From Leifsonia sp. EB41 (GTDB lineage: Bacteria; Actinomycetota; Actinomycetes; Actinomycetales; Microbacteriaceae), in NCBI RefSeq assembly GCF_041262565.1, contig NZ_JBGCCJ010000001.1, positions 2,232,001-2,296,000 on the forward strand: a stretch of 64,000 bases of DNA, written 5' to 3'. Below are positions 1 to 7,331 of the stretch, in pieces. The notes beneath the pieces were generated by a model. The model ran no database searches, had not been told where the DNA came from, and worked only from the letters and a program-made list of their open reading frames with translations. The translations under genes were made by a program, and so were the position numbers. Within the stretch, counting starts at the first letter, position 1. Every line of letters starts with the position of its first letter.

Positions 1-579
1 GAAGGGGGACATCTTCGCGACGTGCAGGATCTCGTCGGAGTAGGCGTTGCCGATTCCGGCGATCAGAGCCTGGTTGCGCAGCACACCCTTGATCTGCGCG
101 CGGCCCTGGCCGGCGAGGATGGCGGCGAACGCGTCCCGTGTGAACGCCGCGTCGAGCGGGTCGGGGCCGAGGCGGGCGACGCCGGGCACCTCCGCCGGGT
201 CGCGGACGATGGAGATGGCGAGGCTCTTCTTCGTGCCGGCCTCGGTGATGTCCAGGCCGGAGCCGCCGTCGAGCACCAGGCGTGCCGCCAGCGGACCCCT
301 GCTCGGGCGCCCGGTCGGCGGGGGCGGGGGAGTCTCACGCCAGCGGATCCAGCCGGCCCGCGCGAGATGGATGACGACATGGAGGTCGCCGGCCGCGATG
401 TCGAGGAACTTGCCGTGCCGGCTGACCCCGGTGATCGTCAGCCCTTTCAGGGCCTCGGGCGGGGGATCGAAGGTCTTCAGCGCGGAGAACGCGACGATGC
501 TCAGCCGGTCGATGACGCGACCGGTCAGCCGCTCGCCCAGGTCGGCGGCGAGGGCGGTGACTTCCGGCAGTTCGGGCAC
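1..579 (-). CDS. Fpg/Nei-family DNA glycosylase, C-terminus beyond window edge
   Basis: Reads from a GTG at 579 into the window edge, leaving 193 residues. The product starts MPELPEV; the proline after the initiator is the Schiff-base nucleophile of Fpg/Nei base-excision glycosylases, followed by the catalytic Glu. A lysine in RHGKFLDI (about residue 55) matches the conserved beta-hairpin Lys. The helix-two-turn-helix signature GIGNAYSDEILH lies near the edge. A second in-frame GTG sits directly upstream (582), but only the 579 start puts Pro at position 2. Family role: removal of oxidised purines and pyrimidines. Whether the C-terminal zinc finger is present cannot be seen, so Fpg versus an actinobacterial Nei/Fpg2 paralogue stays open. 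Confidence 0.9.
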   Translation of the reverse strand, partial: MPELPEVTALAADLGERLTGRVIDRLSIVAFSALKTFDPPPEALKGLTITGVSRHGKFLDIAAGDLHVVIHLARAGWIRWRETPPPPPTGRPSRGPLAARLVLDGGSGLDITEAGTKKSLAISIVRDPAEVPGVARLGPDPLDAAFTRDAFAAILAGQGRAQIKGVLRNQALIAGIGNAYSDEILHVAKMSPF

Positions 580-627
580 CACCCCATACTGCCGCTCTCC
601 ACCGGCGAGCGGCAGTAGGGTGACGGA

Positions 628-1065
628 ATGGACATCAGGGTCGCCGCCTACGGCGTCATCGTGGACGGGCCGCGCATCCTGCTCGCGCACTGGAACGAGG
701 GCGGCCGCTCCGGATGGACGCTGCCCGGCGGAGGGATCGAGCCCGGCGAGGACCCGCTCGACGCGGTCGTGCGCGAGATCGAGGAGGAGACCGGCTTCGA
801 GGCGCGGGCGGACGAGCTGCTCGGCATCGACTCGAAGATCGTCCCTGCCGAGGCGCGCTTCGTCCCGGAGGCTGGGCCGCTTCACGCGCTGCGCATCGTC
901 TATCGCGCGACCGTCACCGGCGGGAGCCTGAGGAACGAGCTGGACGGGACGACGGACGAGGCCGCCTGGTTCGCGCTCGCGAGCATCCCGAACCGGCGGG
1001 TCGACCTGGTCGACGTCGCGCTGCGCATGGCCGGTCTCGGCGACCTGGCCCGCCCGCAGCGCTGA
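628..1065 (+). CDS. Nudix hydrolase
   Basis: A 145-residue protein with a full Nudix box (GX5EX7REUXEEXGU) at about residues 37-59, seen as GGIEPGEDP...REIEEETGF. The family hydrolyses nucleoside diphosphates linked to another moiety; the substrate cannot be read from sequence. It is divergent from the glycosylase gene with only 48 bp between starts. A -10-like TAGGGT (615-620) lies 7 nt before the ATG and there is no clear Shine-Dalgarno, which suggests leaderless transcription. Proximity to a DNA glycosylase fits damaged-nucleotide clean-up, but that is inference. Confidence 0.88.
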   Translation: MDIRVAAYGVIVDGPRILLAHWNEGGRSGWTLPGGGIEPGEDPLDAVVREIEEETGFEARADELLGIDSKIVPAEARFVPEAGPLHALRIVYRATVTGGSLRNELDGTTDEAAWFALASIPNRRVDLVDVALRMAGLGDLARPQR

Positions 1066-1072
1066 ACGGCGG

Positions 1073-1276
1073 TCAGGCCACCCGGGTGACCGGACGCTGC
1101 TCGGACGGGATGATGATCCACATCGCGATGTAGGCGATGAACTGCGGGCCGGGCAGCAGCAGAGACAGCAGGAAGAGCAGCCGCACCGTCAGCGGCTTCA
1201 CACCGAAACGGTTGGCCAGTCCGGCGCAGACGCCGCCGAGGATGCGGCCGTCGAGGGGTCGTTGCAGAGTGTTCAT
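1073..1276 (-). CDS. PspC-domain small membrane protein
   Basis: A 67-residue protein. Residues 5-60 match the PspC domain: RPLDGRILGGVCAGLA near the N-terminus, then a hydrophobic segment at about 32-56 ending in IIIPSEQ. PspC-domain proteins sit in the cytoplasmic membrane and are tied to envelope-stress responses; short actinobacterial versions are usually of unknown role. The ATG at 1276 is preferred over an upstream start at 1312 because the domain begins right after it. It converges with the Nudix gene, 7 bp between stops. Confidence 0.8.
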   Translation of the reverse strand: MNTLQRPLDGRILGGVCAGLANRFGVKPLTVRLLFLLSLLLPGPQFIAYIAMWIIIPSEQRPVTRVA

Positions 1277-1366
1277 GCCTCCAGCCTCGCCGTCACGAGA
1301 CCGGAGCACCATCCGGGAAACCCCCGATTCGACCCTGGGGTGGACCGACGGCTGTACTACGAAGGA

Positions 1367-1921
1367 CTACTCCGTAGCGGGAGTCATCGGCTCCTCGTCG
1401 GCGACCCAGAGCTCGTCGTCCGCCCGGAAGGTCTGCCAGACGGCGTAGAGCAGCCCGGCAGCCGCGATGACCCCGAGGCCGACCGCGATGACCGTGCCGG
1501 CGCCGGGACCCGAGTTGCGGGAGGCCGCGGAGGCCTTCTTCGTGATCTCCTTGCGCGCCTTGGTGAAATCACCGGCGAAGGCGGCGCTGCGTGCGGCCCG
1601 CGCGTGGTCGACGACCGAGAGCGCGGTGCCGACGGCGGTGCCGACGGCCGGGATCACGTCGCCGACGAGGCGATCGCGTGCGACGCCCGCGTAACGGCCG
1701 GCCGAGTCCTTGGCCGACTGGGCCGCGGGACGGACGTACGAGTCGTAGCCCTCGCGCACTCGCGGCGCGAGCTCCTCACGGGAGTAGTGGGCAGCCTGCT
1801 TGCGGGCAGCGGCAGCCAGAGCGTTGGCGTTCGCGATCACTTCCTGCTGCTGCCCCCACAGCTCCTGCGCGTCACTCCGCAGACGGTCGAGCTCCTTCTG
1901 GCGCTTCCGTGTCAGGCTCAT
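1367..1921 (-). CDS. Conserved hypothetical protein with C-terminal membrane anchor
   Basis: 184 residues starting MSLTRKRQKELDRL, with GGAGG 6 nt upstream of the ATG (about 1928-1932). The first 130 residues are charged and alanine-rich, predicted helical, with basic N-terminal repeats. A single hydrophobic segment near residues 148-170 (VIAVGLGVIAAAGLLYAVW) is followed by an acidic tail. No catalytic motif is visible. I know similar proteins from Microbacteriaceae only as hypotheticals. The gene is divergent from ppiA with 124 bp between starts. A tail-anchored membrane protein is the most that can be said. Confidence 0.7.
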   Translation of the reverse strand: MSLTRKRQKELDRLRSDAQELWGQQQEVIANANALAAAARKQAAHYSREELAPRVREGYDSYVRPAAQSAKDSAGRYAGVARDRLVGDVIPAVGTAVGTALSVVDHARAARSAAFAGDFTKARKEITKKASAASRNSGPGAGTVIAVGLGVIAAAGLLYAVWQTFRADDELWVADEEPMTPATE

Positions 1922-2045
1922 TCTGGACCTCCATTGCGTCGGCTGGGCGAACTGACTCCATCTTGCCACCGAAAGCCCTGAGGATGGCCCGAGAGCCGAA
2001 GTGCGCTCCCGAAACCCAACTGGGCCCTGTGCAAGAATTAGTGGC

Positions 2046-2585
2046 ATGTCTAAGCACACCGCTGTCGCCACGCTCCACACTAACTACGGAGACATCAAGG
2101 TCAACCTCTTCGGCAACCACGCTCCGAAGACGGTCCGTAACTTCGTGGGCCTCGCGACCGGTGAGATCGAGTGGACGCACCCCGCCACCGGCGAGAAGAC
2201 GAACAAGCCGCTCTACGACGGCGTGGTCTTCCACCGCATCATCCCCGGCTTCATGATCCAGGGCGGCGACCCGCTCGGTCAGGGCATCGGCGGCCCGGGC
2301 TACCAGTTCGACGACGAGATCAACCCCGAGCTCGACTTCACCCAGCCGTACATCCTCGCGATGGCCAACGCCGGCATCCAGGGCGGCCGCGGAACGAACG
2401 GCTCGCAGTTCTTCATCACCGTCGCACCCACCACGTGGCTGCAGGGCAAGCACACGATCTTCGGCGAGATCGCGGACGACGCGTCCCGCAAGATCGTCGA
2501 CAAGCTCGCGGAGCTGCCGACCGACGCCCGTGACCGTCCCCTCGACGACGTCGTGATCGAGTCGGTCGAGATCGACCAGGCCTGA
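2046..2585 (+). CDS. ppiA: Cyclophilin-type peptidyl-prolyl cis-trans isomerase
   Basis: 179 residues covering one cyclophilin domain. Visible hallmarks are the catalytic segment FHRIIPGFMIQGGDP (about residues 61-75), the substrate-binding MANAGIQ...GSQFFIT, and W(LQG)KHTIFGE. It catalyses cis-trans isomerisation of Xaa-Pro bonds. No signal peptide is seen, so it is cytoplasmic. Start chosen at MSKHTAV; an AAGAAT -10-like hexamer (2033-2038) lies 7 nt before the ATG with no Shine-Dalgarno, consistent with a leaderless mRNA. Its position ahead of the crgA-pknB block matches Mycobacterium tuberculosis ppiA (Rv0009). Confidence 0.95.
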   Translation: MSKHTAVATLHTNYGDIKVNLFGNHAPKTVRNFVGLATGEIEWTHPATGEKTNKPLYDGVVFHRIIPGFMIQGGDPLGQGIGGPGYQFDDEINPELDFTQPYILAMANAGIQGGRGTNGSQFFITVAPTTWLQGKHTIFGEIADDASRKIVDKLAELPTDARDRPLDDVVIESVEIDQA

Positions 2586-2612
2586 GTTCTGCTGGAGGGC
2601 GGAGAGGGAACC

Positions 2613-3470
2613 ATGTCTCAGCCCGTCGACGCTCCGGCGACCGTCTGCTACCGGCACCCCGATCGCGTCAGCCATGTGCGCTGCCAGCGCTGCGGCCGGC
2701 CGATCTGCGGTGAGTGCCAGACTCCCGCCGCGGTGGGGGTGATCTGCCCGGAGTGCATGGCGCAGCAGCGCGCCACAGCACCGCGCACCCGCTCGCCGTG
2801 GGTGTCCCGGCTCACCGGGCCGGGCGCGCCGGTCGTCACGTACGCGATCATCGGCGTCTGCATCGTGGTGTTCATCCTGCAGAACCTGCCCGTGATCGGA
2901 AGTCAGGTCACGAACTCGCTGCTCTACGCCGGCGCCTACTCCTACCCGTCCGGCTCGCTGTCGCCGGCGCTCGGGTTCGAGCCGTGGCGGATGCTGACCT
3001 CGGTCTTCCTGCACGCGAACATCATCCACATCGCGCTCAACATGTACACGCTGTGGATCTTCGGGATGGCGCTGGAGCCCGTGCTCGGCCGGGCGCGCTT
3101 CCTCACCCTGTTCCTGATCAGCGGGTTCGCCGGGTCGCTCGGCGTGCTGCTGCTCTCCCCGGCCAACCAGCCGGTGATCGGCGCGTCCGGCGCGATCTTC
3201 GGCATGCTGGGCGCTTTCTTCATCATCCAGCGCCGGCTCGGCGGCAACGGGATGCAGATCCTCGTGCTGGTCGGCCTCAACCTGGCGATCGGCTTCCTGC
3301 CCGGCATGAACATCGCCTGGCAGGCGCACGTCGGCGGTCTGGTCGGCGGGGCCCTGGCCGGGCTGATCTACGTCGAGACGCGCATGCCGTCTCGCCGTCG
3401 CTGGCAGACACCGCTCATCGTGGTGCTCTGCGTGGTGCTCGTCGGCGCGAGCCTGCTGCATTTCGTCTGA
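2613..3470 (+). CDS. Rhomboid-family intramembrane serine protease with N-terminal zinc finger
   Basis: 285 residues. Residues 10-50 hold a B-box-like zinc-binding stretch (CYRHPD, CQRCGRPICGEC, CPEC). Residues 75-285 are a six/seven-helix rhomboid core with GASGAIFG carrying the nucleophilic Ser (about 191), a conserved His in HANIIHIALNMYTLW, and the catalytic His in AHVGGLVGG. Rhomboids cut transmembrane substrates within the membrane. The gene follows ppiA by 27 bp with GGAGGG upstream of the ATG (about 2593-2608), so it is probably in the same operon. The substrate is unknown. Confidence 0.92.
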   Translation: MSQPVDAPATVCYRHPDRVSHVRCQRCGRPICGECQTPAAVGVICPECMAQQRATAPRTRSPWVSRLTGPGAPVVTYAIIGVCIVVFILQNLPVIGSQVTNSLLYAGAYSYPSGSLSPALGFEPWRMLTSVFLHANIIHIALNMYTLWIFGMALEPVLGRARFLTLFLISGFAGSLGVLLLSPANQPVIGASGAIFGMLGAFFIIQRRLGGNGMQILVLVGLNLAIGFLPGMNIAWQAHVGGLVGGALAGLIYVETRMPSRRRWQTPLIVVLCVVLVGASLLHFV

Positions 3471-3480
3471 CGCCGGGCAC

Positions 3481-3623
3481 TTCCCCACAACGCGTGGATA
3501 AGTTATCCACAGCCTTATTAACAGTGGGGATAATTACACCGGTGTAACTCTCCACAGGCTTATTAACACTGGGGAGAAGCCGACTGCGGGGCTGTGGGCG
3601 GTGGGGAGAACTGCTGTGGATAA
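3481..3623. promoter_or_regulatory. Cluster of DnaA-box-like 9-mers in the rhomboid-crgA gap
   Basis: Two perfect TTATCCACA boxes lie at 3503-3511 (+) and 3615-3623 (-). Near matches: TTATCCACG at 3493-3501 (-), TTATCCCCA at 3525-3533 (-), TTCCCCACA at 3481-3489 (+), CTCTCCACA at 3548-3556 (+), and TTCTCCCCA at 3570-3578 and 3602-3610 (-). The stretch 3503-3570 is strikingly AT-rich for this genome. A perfect 14-bp palindrome, TTACACCGGTGTAA, sits at 3534-3547. The gap 3471-3648 holds no ORF. DnaA binding is inferred from the box sequence; dnaA and dnaN are not in the window, so this is not claimed to be oriC. Confidence 0.6.
3506..3578. repeat. Two imperfect 28-bp direct repeats flanking a palindrome
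   Basis: Copies at 3506-3533 and 3551-3578 differ at three of 28 positions. Each has a TCCACAG head, a CTTATTAACA core and a TGGGGA tail. They are offset by 45 bp, with the TTACACCGGTGTAA palindrome between them. The head and tail of each copy are themselves DnaA-box-like, in opposite orientations. Confidence 0.75.
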
Positions 3624-3648
3624 GTGGAGGACTGCGGCTGGAGCGAGG

Positions 3649-3909
3649 TCAGCGCCAGCGGGTGGTCATCAGGAAGCCGATGAAGGCGATCCCGAAGCCG
3701 ACCAGGATGTTCCACGCGCCGAGGGCGGGGATCGGGTACTGGTTCTGGCTGACGTAGAAGACGATGATCCAGATGAGCCCGAGCAGCATGAAGCCGAACA
3801 TGACGGGCTTGAACCAGACGGGGTTGGGGGCGTCCTCGCCGGTTGCGGCCGAGCTGCGCTCGGGACGGGCGGAGCGCTCGAGCTTGGTCTTGGACTTGGT
3901 GCGTGCCAT
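3649..3909 (-). CDS. crgA: Cell division protein CrgA
   Basis: 86 residues with a charged N-terminal tail of about 30, then NPVWFKPVMFGFMLLGLIWI and a second hydrophobic segment (residues 60-81) ending TTRWR. This two-helix hairpin is the CrgA family. CrgA helps assemble the actinobacterial divisome, contacting FtsZ, FtsQ and PBPs, and can delay septation. It acts in the cytoplasmic membrane. It is divergent from the sortase gene with 108 bp between starts. Position and length match Rv0011c. Confidence 0.93.
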   Translation of the reverse strand: MARTKSKTKLERSARPERSSAATGEDAPNPVWFKPVMFGFMLLGLIWIIVFYVSQNQYPIPALGAWNILVGFGIAFIGFLMTTRWR

Positions 3910-4017
3910 AGCACACAAGTGTAGCGGGAGCGGTCTGAACGTTCGTGGCGATGGAGGCGTGCAGTTCCCGGGAAACACCCGGTTTGGCGGGGCTGCGTCC
4001 CGCTTAGATTGTGTCAT

Positions 4018-4821
4018 ATGACCGACCCCGCAGAGCCAGAGCGCCATCGCGCCGGCTCGCGACGCGCGGCCCGGCCCCGCCGCACGCGCAGCGCGGGCGA
4101 GGTGGTCCTCACCGTCATCGGCGAGCTGCTCATCACGGCCGGAGTGCTGGTCGGCCTCTTCCTCGGCTGGCAGGTGTGGTGGAACAACCTCGTCCTGTCG
4201 GGTCAGCAGACCTCGGCGGCGCAAGAGCAGAGCAAGAAGTGGATCGACGACGCGATCAAGGCCCCGCGGCCCACGCCGACGGACCCGTCGTCTCCCGAGG
4301 CGGTCGATCCTCCCGTGATGGCGCAGCCCGGGGACTACGAGCCGTTCGCCGTCATCTACATCCCCCGCCTCGGGCCGGACTGGAAGCGCACGATCCGCGA
4401 GACGGTCGACGTCGACAAGGTGCTCAACAGCTACACCGCGGGCGTCGGCCACTATGCCGGCACGGCGATGCCGGGGGAGGTCGGCAACTTCGCCGTCGCG
4501 GGCCACGACTCGGGCTGGGGCAACACCTTCATCGACCTGTCCAAGCTGCACATCGGCGACCGCATCTACGTGCAGACCAAGGACGGCTGGTACACCTACC
4601 TCTTCCGCAACTTCGAGTACGTGCAACCCACGCAGGTGCAGGTGATCGCGTCGGTGCCGCACCATCCCGACGTGCAGCCCATCGACAGGCTCATGACGAT
4701 CACGACGTGCAACCCGCCGTTCCACGCGGGCGAGCGGCTGATCGCCTACAACGTCTATGCGGGCTACCAGCCGACACAGGACGTTCCGAATGAGATCCGC
4801 GCCGCGGTGACGGGAGGCTGA
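4018..4821 (+). CDS. Class E sortase
   Basis: 267 residues. A basic N-terminus precedes one TM segment (about residues 30-55, LTVIGELLITAGVLVGLFLGW), then an extracytoplasmic sortase domain. Catalytic elements seen: His in AVAGHDSGWG (about 160), Cys in MTITTCNPPF (about 236) and Arg in the following AGERL. Class E sortases of high-GC Gram-positives join LAXTG-type surface proteins to the wall. A TAGATT -10 (4005-4010) lies 7 nt before the ATG with TTGGCG upstream and no Shine-Dalgarno, so the transcript is probably leaderless. Confidence 0.9.
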   Translation: MTDPAEPERHRAGSRRAARPRRTRSAGEVVLTVIGELLITAGVLVGLFLGWQVWWNNLVLSGQQTSAAQEQSKKWIDDAIKAPRPTPTDPSSPEAVDPPVMAQPGDYEPFAVIYIPRLGPDWKRTIRETVDVDKVLNSYTAGVGHYAGTAMPGEVGNFAVAGHDSGWGNTFIDLSKLHIGDRIYVQTKDGWYTYLFRNFEYVQPTQVQVIASVPHHPDVQPIDRLMTITTCNPPFHAGERLIAYNVYAGYQPTQDVPNEIRAAVTGG

Positions 4822-4824
4822 ACC

Positions 4825-4983
4825 ATGTACGGAGCACTGTGGCGCATCCTCCCCGGGCCGGTCTGGCTGCGCATCGTCATCCTGGTGGTCCTGTTCGCGG
4901 TCGTGCTGTGGGCGCTGGTGACCTGGGTCTTCCCCTGGGTGGATTCGCTCCTCGGACCCCAGGAAGGTACCGTTGGGCCGTGA
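4825..4983 (+). CDS. Small single-pass membrane protein between sortase and pabA
   Basis: 52 residues, MYGALWRILPGPVWLR followed by one hydrophobic segment (about residues 15-38) and a short acidic tail. The ATG lies 3 nt after the sortase stop. Its TGA overlaps the pabA GTG in a GTGA junction, so translation of all three is probably coupled. No function is known to me. The tight fit between two conserved genes and the clean hydrophobic profile argue that it is real. Confidence 0.7.
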   Translation: MYGALWRILPGPVWLRIVILVVLFAVVLWALVTWVFPWVDSLLGPQEGTVGP

Positions 4984-5618
4984 CCCGCGTACTCGTCATC
5001 GACAACTACGACAGCTTCGTCTACACGCTCAACGGCTACCTGCGTGAGCTCGGCGCCGAGACCGAGGTCGTGCGCAACGACGACATCGCGATCGAGGACC
5101 TGCAGGCACGCGTGTCCGAGTTCGACGCGGTGCTGGTGTCGCCAGGGCCGGGCAAGCCGGCCGACGCCGGGGTGTCCATCCCGGTCGTCGAGCTCGCGCT
5201 GAAGGCCGGGATGCCGCTGCTCGGGGTCTGCCTCGGCCACCAGGCGATCGCTGAGGCGTTCGGCGGCGTGGTGACCAACGCCGAGGAGCTGATGCACGGC
5301 AAGACCTCGCAGGTCGAGCACGACGACAGCCTGCTGTTCGACGGCGTGCCTCAGCCGTTCACGGCGACGCGCTACCACTCGCTGGCGGTCGTGGACGGTA
5401 CCCTCCCCGATGAGCTCGTGGTCACGGCGCGCACGGCCGGCGGCGTCATCATGGCGCTGCAGCACACGACCGCGCCCATCTACGGTGTGCAGTTCCACCC
5501 GGAGTCGGTGCTCACCGAGGGCGGCTACCGGATGCTCGGCAACTGGCTCGAGAAGTGCGGTCTCGCCGGCGCCGCGGAGGCGTCCCGTTCGCTCAACCCG
5601 CTCGTGAAGCTGGGCTGA
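4980..5618 (+). CDS. pabA: Anthranilate/aminodeoxychorismate synthase glutamine amidotransferase subunit
   Basis: 212 residues from a GTG at 4980 with AGGAAGG at 4961-4967. A class I glutamine amidotransferase: the catalytic Cys sits in GVCLGHQAI (about residue 81), and the His-Glu pair is in QFHPESVL (about 172). The N-terminus reads VLVIDNYDSFVY, typical of TrpG/PabA. It supplies ammonia to chorismate for anthranilate or 4-amino-4-deoxychorismate; no large subunit is nearby, so folate versus tryptophan use is undecided. This is the trpG/pabA gene found next to pknB across Actinobacteria (Rv0013). Confidence 0.92.
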   Translation: MTRVLVIDNYDSFVYTLNGYLRELGAETEVVRNDDIAIEDLQARVSEFDAVLVSPGPGKPADAGVSIPVVELALKAGMPLLGVCLGHQAIAEAFGGVVTNAEELMHGKTSQVEHDDSLLFDGVPQPFTATRYHSLAVVDGTLPDELVVTARTAGGVIMALQHTTAPIYGVQFHPESVLTEGGYRMLGNWLEKCGLAGAAEASRSLNPLVKLG

Positions 5619-5636
5619 GCCGAGCCTCCCGGTCGG

Positions 5637-7331
5637 TCAGCCCGAGCAGTAGGTGAGGCCGACAGTGCTCCCCTGGGGCACGTCGCCCGGCGCGACCGTC
5701 TGCGTGTGCACCAGCGGCGCGCCGGCGTTCTGCTTGCACGTGGTGTCGGCCTTCGGATCGGCTGTCAGCCCGAGCTGCTGGAGCAGTGAGGTCGCAGCGG
5801 GCAGGGATTGGCCGGTGAGGTCGGTCAGCGTGACCTTGCCGCTGGAGACCGTGAGACCGATCGCGTCGCCTTCGTGCGCGTTGCTGCCGGCGGCGGGCGA
5901 GGTCTGGATGACGACGTTGGCAGGCACCGTCGGCGAGTTCTGCGTCGTGACCGGGCCGAGGGTGAGCCCTGCCGTCGTCAGCGCCTGTTTCGCGGCGTCC
6001 TGCGTCATGTTGGTGAGGTCGGGGACGGCCACGGACTTCTTGCCCGTCGACACGAAGACGTTGATGGTGTCGCCGGTGGCCACGACGATCCCGGCGGCGG
6101 GATCGGTGCGGATGACCTGACCATTGCCGTAAGTCGAGCTGGCCTCCGTGGACTGCGTCCACTTGAGCTTGAGGTCCTCGAGCTGCTTCGTCGCTTTGTC
6201 GAGCGTCTGGCCGGACAGGTTGGGGACCTCGCGGGAGGTGTCCGGCATGGTCGTGCCCGGTGCGATCCGCAGCACCCAGGCGAGGACGGCGACGATCACG
6301 ACCGCCATCACCGCGATGCCGGCCCAGATCCAGATGACCGGTGGGCGGCGCTGCGTGCGGACCATCGTCTGGTCCTCCGCGAGCTGACGGAACGCGGCCT
6401 CCGGGCCCGAGACCGAGCTCGGCGGCGCCCCGAAGAGCGTCTCGGAGAACTCGTCGGGATGCTTGTGGACGGGCACGCGCCCGGCAGCGGCCTCCTCCAG
6501 GTCGTGACGGAAGTCGGCGACGGTCTGGTAGCGCTCGAAGCGGTCCTTGGTGAGGGCATGGGCGACCACGGTGTCCATCGCCGGGGAGACCTTGGGGTTC
6601 ACGGTGCTCGGCGCGACGGCCGTCTCGCTGACGTGCTGGTAGGCGACCGCGACCGGGGTGTCGCCGCGGAACGGCGGCCGGCCGGTCAGCATCTCGAACA
6701 GGACGACGCCGGTCGAGTAGAGGTCGGTGCGAGCGTCGACCGTCTCGCCCTTGGCCTGCTCGGGCGAGAAGTAGCTGGCGGTGCCGAGCACCGCGGTCGT
6801 CTGCGCGACCGTGGCGGAGGAGTCGCTGATGGCGCGGGCGATGCCGAAGTCCATCACCTTGACCTGGCCGGTCGTCGTGATCATGACGTTGCCCGGCTTG
6901 ATGTCACGGTGCACCACGCCCGCGCGGTGCGAGTACTCGAGGGCCGTCAGGATTCCCTCGGTGATCCGGACCGCCTCGGCGACCTCCAGCGGGCCGCGCT
7001 TGATGAGATCTTTCAGAAGAACGCCGTCGACGTACTCCATCACGATGAAGGGGAGCTGCGCCTCGTGACCGTTCGGCTCGCGGACGGTCTCCTCGCCCGC
7101 GTCGAACACGCGCACGATGGTCGGGTGCGTCATCCGCGCCGCGGCCTGGGCCTCCTGACGGAAGCGCGTGCGGAACGCCGGATCGGTCGCCAGGGACGGC
7201 TTGAGCAGCTTGATGGCGACCGTGCGGCCCAGCCGGGTGTCCGTCCCGCGGTGCACGTCGGACATGCCGCCGCGACCGACGAGCTCGCCCACCTGATATC
7301 GGCCTGCGAGCAGGCGGCTATCTGGGCTCAA
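5637..7331 (-). CDS. pknB: Serine/threonine protein kinase with PASTA domains (PknB)
   Basis: 564 residues. Kinase domain about 12-280: glycine loop VGRGGMSDV, Lys41 in VAIK, catalytic HRDIKPGN at 141-148, DFG at 161-163 and a Thr-rich activation loop. One TM at about 331-354, then three extracytoplasmic PASTA repeats (from about 369, 436 and 507), which bind muropeptides in this family. It is a TTG start with AAGGAG 7 nt upstream. It is separated from pknA by 114 bp containing a possible TACACT -10 (7376-7371) and a GC hairpin (7396-7410), so it may have its own promoter. It senses wall precursors and controls growth and division. Confidence 0.95.
   Translation of the reverse strand: MSPDSRLLAGRYQVGELVGRGGMSDVHRGTDTRLGRTVAIKLLKPSLATDPAFRTRFRQEAQAAARMTHPTIVRVFDAGEETVREPNGHEAQLPFIVMEYVDGVLLKDLIKRGPLEVAEAVRITEGILTALEYSHRAGVVHRDIKPGNVMITTTGQVKVMDFGIARAISDSSATVAQTTAVLGTASYFSPEQAKGETVDARTDLYSTGVVLFEMLTGRPPFRGDTPVAVAYQHVSETAVAPSTVNPKVSPAMDTVVAHALTKDRFERYQTVADFRHDLEEAAAGRVPVHKHPDEFSETLFGAPPSSVSGPEAAFRQLAEDQTMVRTQRRPPVIWIWAGIAVMAVVIVAVLAWVLRIAPGTTMPDTSREVPNLSGQTLDKATKQLEDLKLKWTQSTEASSTYGNGQVIRTDPAAGIVVATGDTINVFVSTGKKSVAVPDLTNMTQDAAKQALTTAGLTLGPVTTQNSPTVPANVVIQTSPAAGSNAHEGDAIGLTVSSGKVTLTDLTGQSLPAATSLLQQLGLTADPKADTTCKQNAGAPLVHTQTVAPGDVPQGSTVGLTYCSG

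Follow-up and report, generated by a model that had tools for sequence, protein, structure and literature searches.

The window described here is a stretch of 64,000 nt from Leifsonia sp. EB41 (contig NZ_JBGCCJ010000001.1, positions 2,232,001 to 2,296,000), and the element of interest is a cluster of DnaA boxes with a palindrome in the 178-bp gap (3471-3648) between a rhomboid gene and the cell division gene crgA. The gap has a G+C content of 57%, against 70% in the window. It is flanked by the 3' ends of these two convergent genes and therefore holds the promoter of neither. The following features were recognized:

2613..3470, plus strand: gene for a rhomboid-family membrane protein (PF01694, 122.1 bits), its 3' end facing the element
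3481..3501, no strand: two flanking boxes, TTCCCCACA at 3481-3489 (+) and TTATCCACG at 3493-3501 (-)
3503..3511, plus strand: DnaA box 1 of the core, TTATCCACA, exact match
3515..3523, plus strand: DnaA box 2 of the core, TTATTAACA, 3 nt past box 1, in the same columns in relatives
3525..3533, minus strand: DnaA box 3 of the core, TTATCCCCA, inverted, 1 nt past box 2, with which it forms a head-to-head pair
3532..3549, no strand: 18-bp palindrome AATTACACCGGTGTAACT, putative ResR/McdR operator, one mismatch to AATnACA-n4-TGTnATT
3534-3547: 14-bp palindrome TTACACCGGTGTAA, centre of the 18-bp palindrome
3548..3578, plus strand: second three-box array, without palindrome, composed of CTCTCCACA at 3548-3556 (+), TTATTAACA at 3560-3568 (+), and TTCTCCCCA at 3570-3578 (-)
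3602..3623, minus strand: two flanking boxes, TTCTCCCCA at 3602-3610 (-) and TTATCCACA at 3615-3623 (-)
3649..3909, minus strand: crgA, coding for cell division protein CrgA (PF06781, 104.6 bits), its 3' end facing the element

The paired 28-bp direct repeats (3506-3533 and 3551-3578, 89% identical) are parts of two copies of one array, in which two boxes of one orientation, 3 nt apart, are followed after 1 nt by an inverted box. The palindrome is placed between the two copies; its 14-bp centre abuts box 3 of the first copy, and the whole 18 bp overlap the end of that box by 2 bp. Compared with TTATCCACA, two boxes of the gap are exact (3503-3511 on the plus and 3615-3623 on the minus strand), two have one mismatch, and six have two. 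When the gap was shuffled 2000 times with dinucleotides kept, no shuffle had as many boxes at any threshold (0/2000 each): 10 with up to two mismatches against a shuffle mean of 0.37, four with up to one against 0.03, and two exact against 0.0005. The box cluster, the paired repeats, and the 14-bp palindrome in an AT-richer gap, as they had been described from the letters in a first-pass annotation of this DNA, are thereby confirmed. Two other readings of the gap were dropped, as an RNA family, for which Rfam gave no match at gathering score in window positions 1-6000, and as a terminator, no terminator-like hairpin being reported in the gap.

The exact form of TTACACNNGTGTAA occurs once in the 4.16-Mb genome, in this gap. 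With one mismatch allowed, one extra place was found; the reversed control is equally frequent (2 per strand each), and therefore only the exact form stands out. The extra place (G000:C1:1953165-1953192, L055; G000 is the window genome) lies six bases from an isolated TTATCCACA and far from the origin. A second arrangement of DnaA box and palindrome, TCATCCACA ... AATTACGAGGATGTAATT, was identified outside the window at G000:C1:2145924-2146120 (L012 5925-6121), about 73 kb upstream of dnaA and near a FHIPEP flagellar gene, with similar ones in two congeners (L152, L153).

Chromosomal position and relatives

The gap lies about 15 kb from the dnaA-dnaN gap, and so away from the place expected of an origin of replication (oriC). 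Exact TTRTCCACA sites, a genome-wide count of which the first-pass annotation had proposed, number 26 against nine for a control pattern, and nine of the 26 lie no more than 80 kb from the dnaA-dnaN gap (binomial p 3e-7). A further box cluster, with TTATCCACA, TTATCCCCA, and TTTTCCACA all on the minus strand, is located at G000:C1:2201667-2201742 (L010), about 19 kb upstream of oriC and about 1 kb from an SSB gene.

For comparison, 39 gaps from named records were selected by crgA and not by motif, and their best segments are mostly the same core. An automatic scan of the geometry was made on 35 gaps of up to 500 bp (34 from named records and the window). In 26 gaps it returned the core geometry, in which box 2 follows box 1 after 3 nt, box 3 follows box 2 after 1 or 2 nt, and the palindrome centre directly adjoins box 3; seven gaps gave other spacings and two no arrangement. 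In the same scan, box 1 was present with up to one mismatch in 27/35 gaps, box 2 and box 3 with up to two mismatches in 23/35 and 19/35, respectively, and the palindrome with up to one mismatch in 28/35. Box 2 is TTnTCCACA-like in many relatives. Two long Arthrobacter gaps (L046, L051) have related repeated units that fit the core poorly, and the orientation of the array relative to crgA is inverted in four Curtobacterium gaps (L024, L026, L036, L037).

A sequence profile built from 28 cores (R1) matched 146 of 150 genomes of the family (E<=0.1) and 274 of 394 genomes of the class (E<=0.01), or 256/360 among those of good quality; the class-wide search used strict filters that lose weak matches. 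Boxes are thus present in the orthologous gaps of relatives, where by the first-pass annotation their absence would have counted against its proposal. Three R1 searches supplied 88 loci, 81 of which carry CrgA; the set was composed of the best matches and of matches in 40 hand-picked genomes (39 of them known matchers), the window's included, and so not random. The seven loci without CrgA in the stretch are L120, L123, L125, L130, L134, L136, and L144; L130 is a dnaA-dnaN gap, L144 a whiB promoter, and L123 and L125 have an adjoining rhomboid gene. In three genomes of Streptomyces size (family f26; L140-L142), the place of the palindrome is taken by an AGATCT motif followed by a further inverted DnaA box.

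The copy beside crgA lies 12-15 kb from the nearer end of dnaA in five other genomes (L170, L178, L179, L180, G435) and 24 kb from dnaA in a sixth (G275). In one family genome the module stands on both sides of crgA (L180 15463-15513 and 16036-16083). Two genomes of genera other than that of the window have it at dnaA as well as at crgA: in G553 it is placed between rpmH and dnaA, in the dnaA promoter region (L170 18232-18281), and in G442 just past dnaA, in the dnaA-dnaN gap (L178 2044-2091). The dnaA-dnaN gap of G519 gave a weak match of 14 bits and that of the window genome a partial match of 24 bits. A palindrome with boxes was not seen at dnaA-dnaN of the window genome, G435, or G275; oriC of the window genome keeps its box cluster there, including a head-to-head pair. 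As the module also occurs at the dnaA promoter and in the dnaA-dnaN gap, the palindrome seems tied to DnaA control and not to crgA as a gene.

A counterpart of the site is known from mycobacteria. The gap between Rv0010c and Rv0011c (crgA) of Mycobacterium tuberculosis is among five regions highly enriched by DnaA in vitro, and homologs of these five were recovered by chromatin immunoprecipitation sequencing in M. smegmatis (PMC7738170). Clinical strains carry recurrent changes in a small palindromic region of this gap, and engineered changes there lengthen cells, as dnaA mutations do (PMC7738170). Both sites lie on the 3' side of crgA and have a DnaA-box cluster with a palindrome. The other flank is a convergent rhomboid gene in the window and Rv0010c in M. 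tuberculosis, where the gap is upstream of Rv0010c; the window gap is downstream of both neighbours; also, DnaA binding was seen at the mycobacterial site (PMC7738170), while the window site is known here from its sequence. The R1 element was found beside crgA in the two mycobacteria-like genomes examined (L126, L133), and the CrgA of L133 matched CrgA structures. The boxes of the relatives and the mycobacterial DnaA occupancy (PMC7738170) give good support to the earlier proposal that a control element dependent on DnaA lies here, outside dnaA-dnaN.

The palindrome as a putative ResR/McdR operator

The operator of mycobacterial ResR/McdR (Rv1830) is AATnACA-n4-TGTnATT, 18 bp, and ResR binds the whiB2 promoter, which includes such a site (PMC10336103); Rv0010c is absent from the main text of that paper. 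The window palindrome differs from this consensus at one of 12 positions. Among 40 crgA gaps (39 named and the window, with five gaps over 500 bp trimmed to their first 200 bp), the palindrome fits the consensus with up to one mismatch in 31, against 1.3% of random windows from the same loci. The fit was found in 72 of 88 class loci against 4.7% of random windows, with at least three mismatches in 6/88, but since the palindrome is part of the profile by which these loci had been retrieved, they are not an independent test. In each of 19 genomes of the same genus, a wider form of the palindrome, AATTAC-N6-GTAATT, with up to one mismatch occurs in 2-4 places, and the control in zero places in all but one of the 19.

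Beyond the crgA gap, the palindrome was identified upstream of whiB, over the -10 element, in Leifsonia-like and Agromyces-like genomes and in one genome of a far family. In the window genome this ResR-like operator is located at L166 2637-2672 (G000:C1:3447136-3447171), and it is kept in the genus and beyond. No DnaA box with up to two mismatches lies within 150 bp of the operator in 12 of 13 whiB promoters checked. A profile built from ten whiB promoters (R2) matched 94 of 394 class genomes (E<=0.01), including all 21 of the same family. The 30 best R2 matches, five of which are in the profile itself and a sixth of which is identical to one of those, are all upstream of a WhiB match, at 43-148 bp. 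In mycobacteria-like genomes, exact AATTAC-N6-GTAATT was found upstream of SepX/GlpR (L205, L191), of RipA (L209), and of a gene for a small excisionase-type helix-turn-helix protein (L207), which by their motif suggests a division regulon. The palindrome loci L189 and L190 came from an exact-pattern search. The window palindrome thus resembles ResR/McdR operators in its 18-bp pattern and in sharing it with whiB promoters of Leifsonia-like and other genomes, and is unlike the whiB2 operator, a promoter site, in that it abuts a DnaA array downstream of both genes.

A ResR-like protein is encoded in the window genome at G000:C1:743871-744419, beside an FtsR-like protein; the pair was found via PF13411. 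A BFN domain, sought in this genome as an anchor for ResR, was not found. The ResR-like protein shares 57% identity over 174 amino acids with a protein that a mycobacteria-like genome encodes near FtsR; the runner-up among the MerR proteins of the two genomes has 32% over 112. Relatives were identified in 379 of 394 class genomes, f26 included, and because of this near universality their co-occurrence with the palindrome is uninformative. Two other readers of the palindrome were dropped: the FtsR motif is a different 25-bp repeat (PMC6683498), and the MtrA site is a direct repeat and not this palindrome (PMC6265350).

Explanations of the site

The gap is more probably a composite, non-coding chromosomal control site for DnaA and ResR, to which we give a probability of about 0.6. 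The DnaA half appears well founded by analogy with the mycobacterial work. We infer the ResR half from the strong motif match and from the division genes that share the putative operator. DnaA would bind the fixed three-box array, with boxes 1 and 2 head-to-tail and boxes 2 and 3 head-to-head, and the abutting palindrome would be occupied by a dimer of ResR/McdR, a MerR-type regulator of growth and division. Being about 15 kb from oriC, the gap is therefore duplicated early in each round of replication. DnaA would be retained or altered there, and ResR, by competing or cooperating with it at the adjoining site, would modulate this, so that a regulator also acting on whiB and other division genes would tune initiation. 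Direct interplay of ResR and DnaA at the gap, and titration or a changed nucleotide state of DnaA as its outcome, are what we would infer. New here are the match of the palindrome to the ResR/McdR operator and the same operator at whiB promoters.

The first-pass annotation had linked replication to division by way of crgA. The link itself is retained in altered form: it more likely runs through the palindrome, a feature left there without interpretation that matches the ResR/McdR operator. That crgA expression provides the link is unsupported, because the gap is downstream of crgA and because expression of Rv0010c and Rv0011c (crgA) is reported to be unchanged in dnaA mutants of M. tuberculosis (PMC7738170).

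Several points weigh against a composite site. The name ResR for the protein of the window genome rests on its similarity to a mycobacterial neighbour of FtsR and partly on a presumed gene order, and NCBIfam and PDB gave no entry naming this protein. No R1 match was obtained in 120 of 394 class genomes (E<=0.01, strict filters) and no R2 match in 300 of 394 (E<=0.01); the 94 genomes matched by R2 include no mycobacteria-like (f11) one. The three f26 genomes (L140-L142) have three boxes beside crgA and no palindrome, yet f26 has a ResR-like protein; therefore, protein and operator do not co-vary. ResR binding to the crgA gap was not found in the PMC literature searched, and it may already be in print. 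The mycobacterial palindrome was read as two degenerate DnaA boxes, with the mechanism left open (PMC7738170). Finally, a similar palindrome upstream of Rv0010c, ATCAC-N6-GTGAT, is bound in vitro by the M. tuberculosis regulator HigA2 at 8 uM (PMC11205783), which by analogy makes HigA2 a weak lead as reader of the palindrome.

The site could also be a DnaA-only titration site near oriC, in which the palindrome itself counts as DnaA boxes of varied strength. Ten boxes in 178 bp, the concentration of exact boxes near the origin (nine of 26 at 80 kb or less), and the two DnaA-like boxes seen in the mycobacterial palindrome (PMC7738170) agree with this, and so does early initiation after deletion of six DnaA-box clusters in Bacillus subtilis (PMC5295017). 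Like these clusters and datA of Escherichia coli, which restrain initiation, the gap is a box cluster outside oriC, but a core with an abutting palindrome is not described for them in the excerpts consulted. Since the palindrome also stands over whiB promoters, with no DnaA box nearby in 12 of 13, since its arms in the window are at least three positions off TTATNCACA, and since titration alone requires neither a recurrent geometry nor a single chromosomal address, we consider this explanation rather unlikely. By function, the site might instead be compared with a DnaA-reactivating sequence (DARS), at which a head-to-head pair would reactivate DnaA bound to adenosine diphosphate, aided by a third box and a neighbouring protein. 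For this comparison, segments of E. coli MG1655 DNA were taken for the DARS1 and DARS2 cores. The DARS2 core was found upstream of mutH. Both cores have three boxes, two of the same orientation 3 nt apart and then a head-to-head partner, as in the window. In E. coli, IHF and Fis assist at DARS2, and the window gap likewise has a putative site for another protein adjoining its boxes, though a different one and at a different address. A printed primer anchors the DARS2 locus (PMC4585315), and DARS function requires the head-to-head boxes I and II (PMC10380432). The window has 1 nt between its head-to-head boxes, 26/35 gaps have 1 or 2 nt, and both DARS cores have 5 nt; the DnaA pair is therefore phased differently. 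Such a pair is also not peculiar to sites of this kind, since oriC of the window genome has one as well. Identity with DARS is thus quite unlikely, while the gap may, by analogy, work like one.

Control of transcription of a neighbouring gene is very unlikely. A single sigma-70-like match in the gap (3506-3534; shuffle mean 0.1) and the position of the M. tuberculosis gap upstream of Rv0010c would suit it, but the rhomboid gene and crgA both end at the gap, no terminator-like hairpin was reported there, the array is flipped relative to crgA in the four Curtobacterium gaps, and neither mycobacterial neighbour changed in expression in the dnaA mutants of PMC7738170. Least probable of all is a bipartite origin whose second part was displaced to the gap, or a gap sequence that is an ancestral copy of oriC. 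The modules at dnaA in other genera (L170, L178) and the 24-bit partial match at dnaA-dnaN of the window genome are in its favour, against which stand the many genes lying between, the distances of 12-15 kb and 24 kb from dnaA in the six other genomes, and the box cluster that the window genome keeps at dnaA-dnaN. A looser parallel to the composite site is found in the RefZ motifs of Bacillus, which are near-palindromes at a conserved position relative to oriC and tie the chromosome to division; RefZ is a TetR-family protein with five sites per chromosome, and, in the excerpts of PMC6657595, no DnaA boxes are described for them.

In its widest form, which we hold tentatively and at somewhat less than even odds, the composite reading describes a class-wide nucleoprotein switch beside crgA that joins DnaA and ResR/McdR, so that the division programme (whiB, sepX/glpR, ripA) and the amount of active DnaA available would be set by one regulator. 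The coupling of initiation to growth and division is poorly known in actinobacteria, and the element, present in many genomes of the class, gives it a precise address and two named proteins. If the reading is true, the DnaA site of M. tuberculosis, whose recurrent changes had been put down to DnaA boxes, would hold a ResR operator inside a DnaA array, and two drug-survival pathways described separately would be united in one cell-cycle circuit; this clinically recurrent site thereby gains a new reading.
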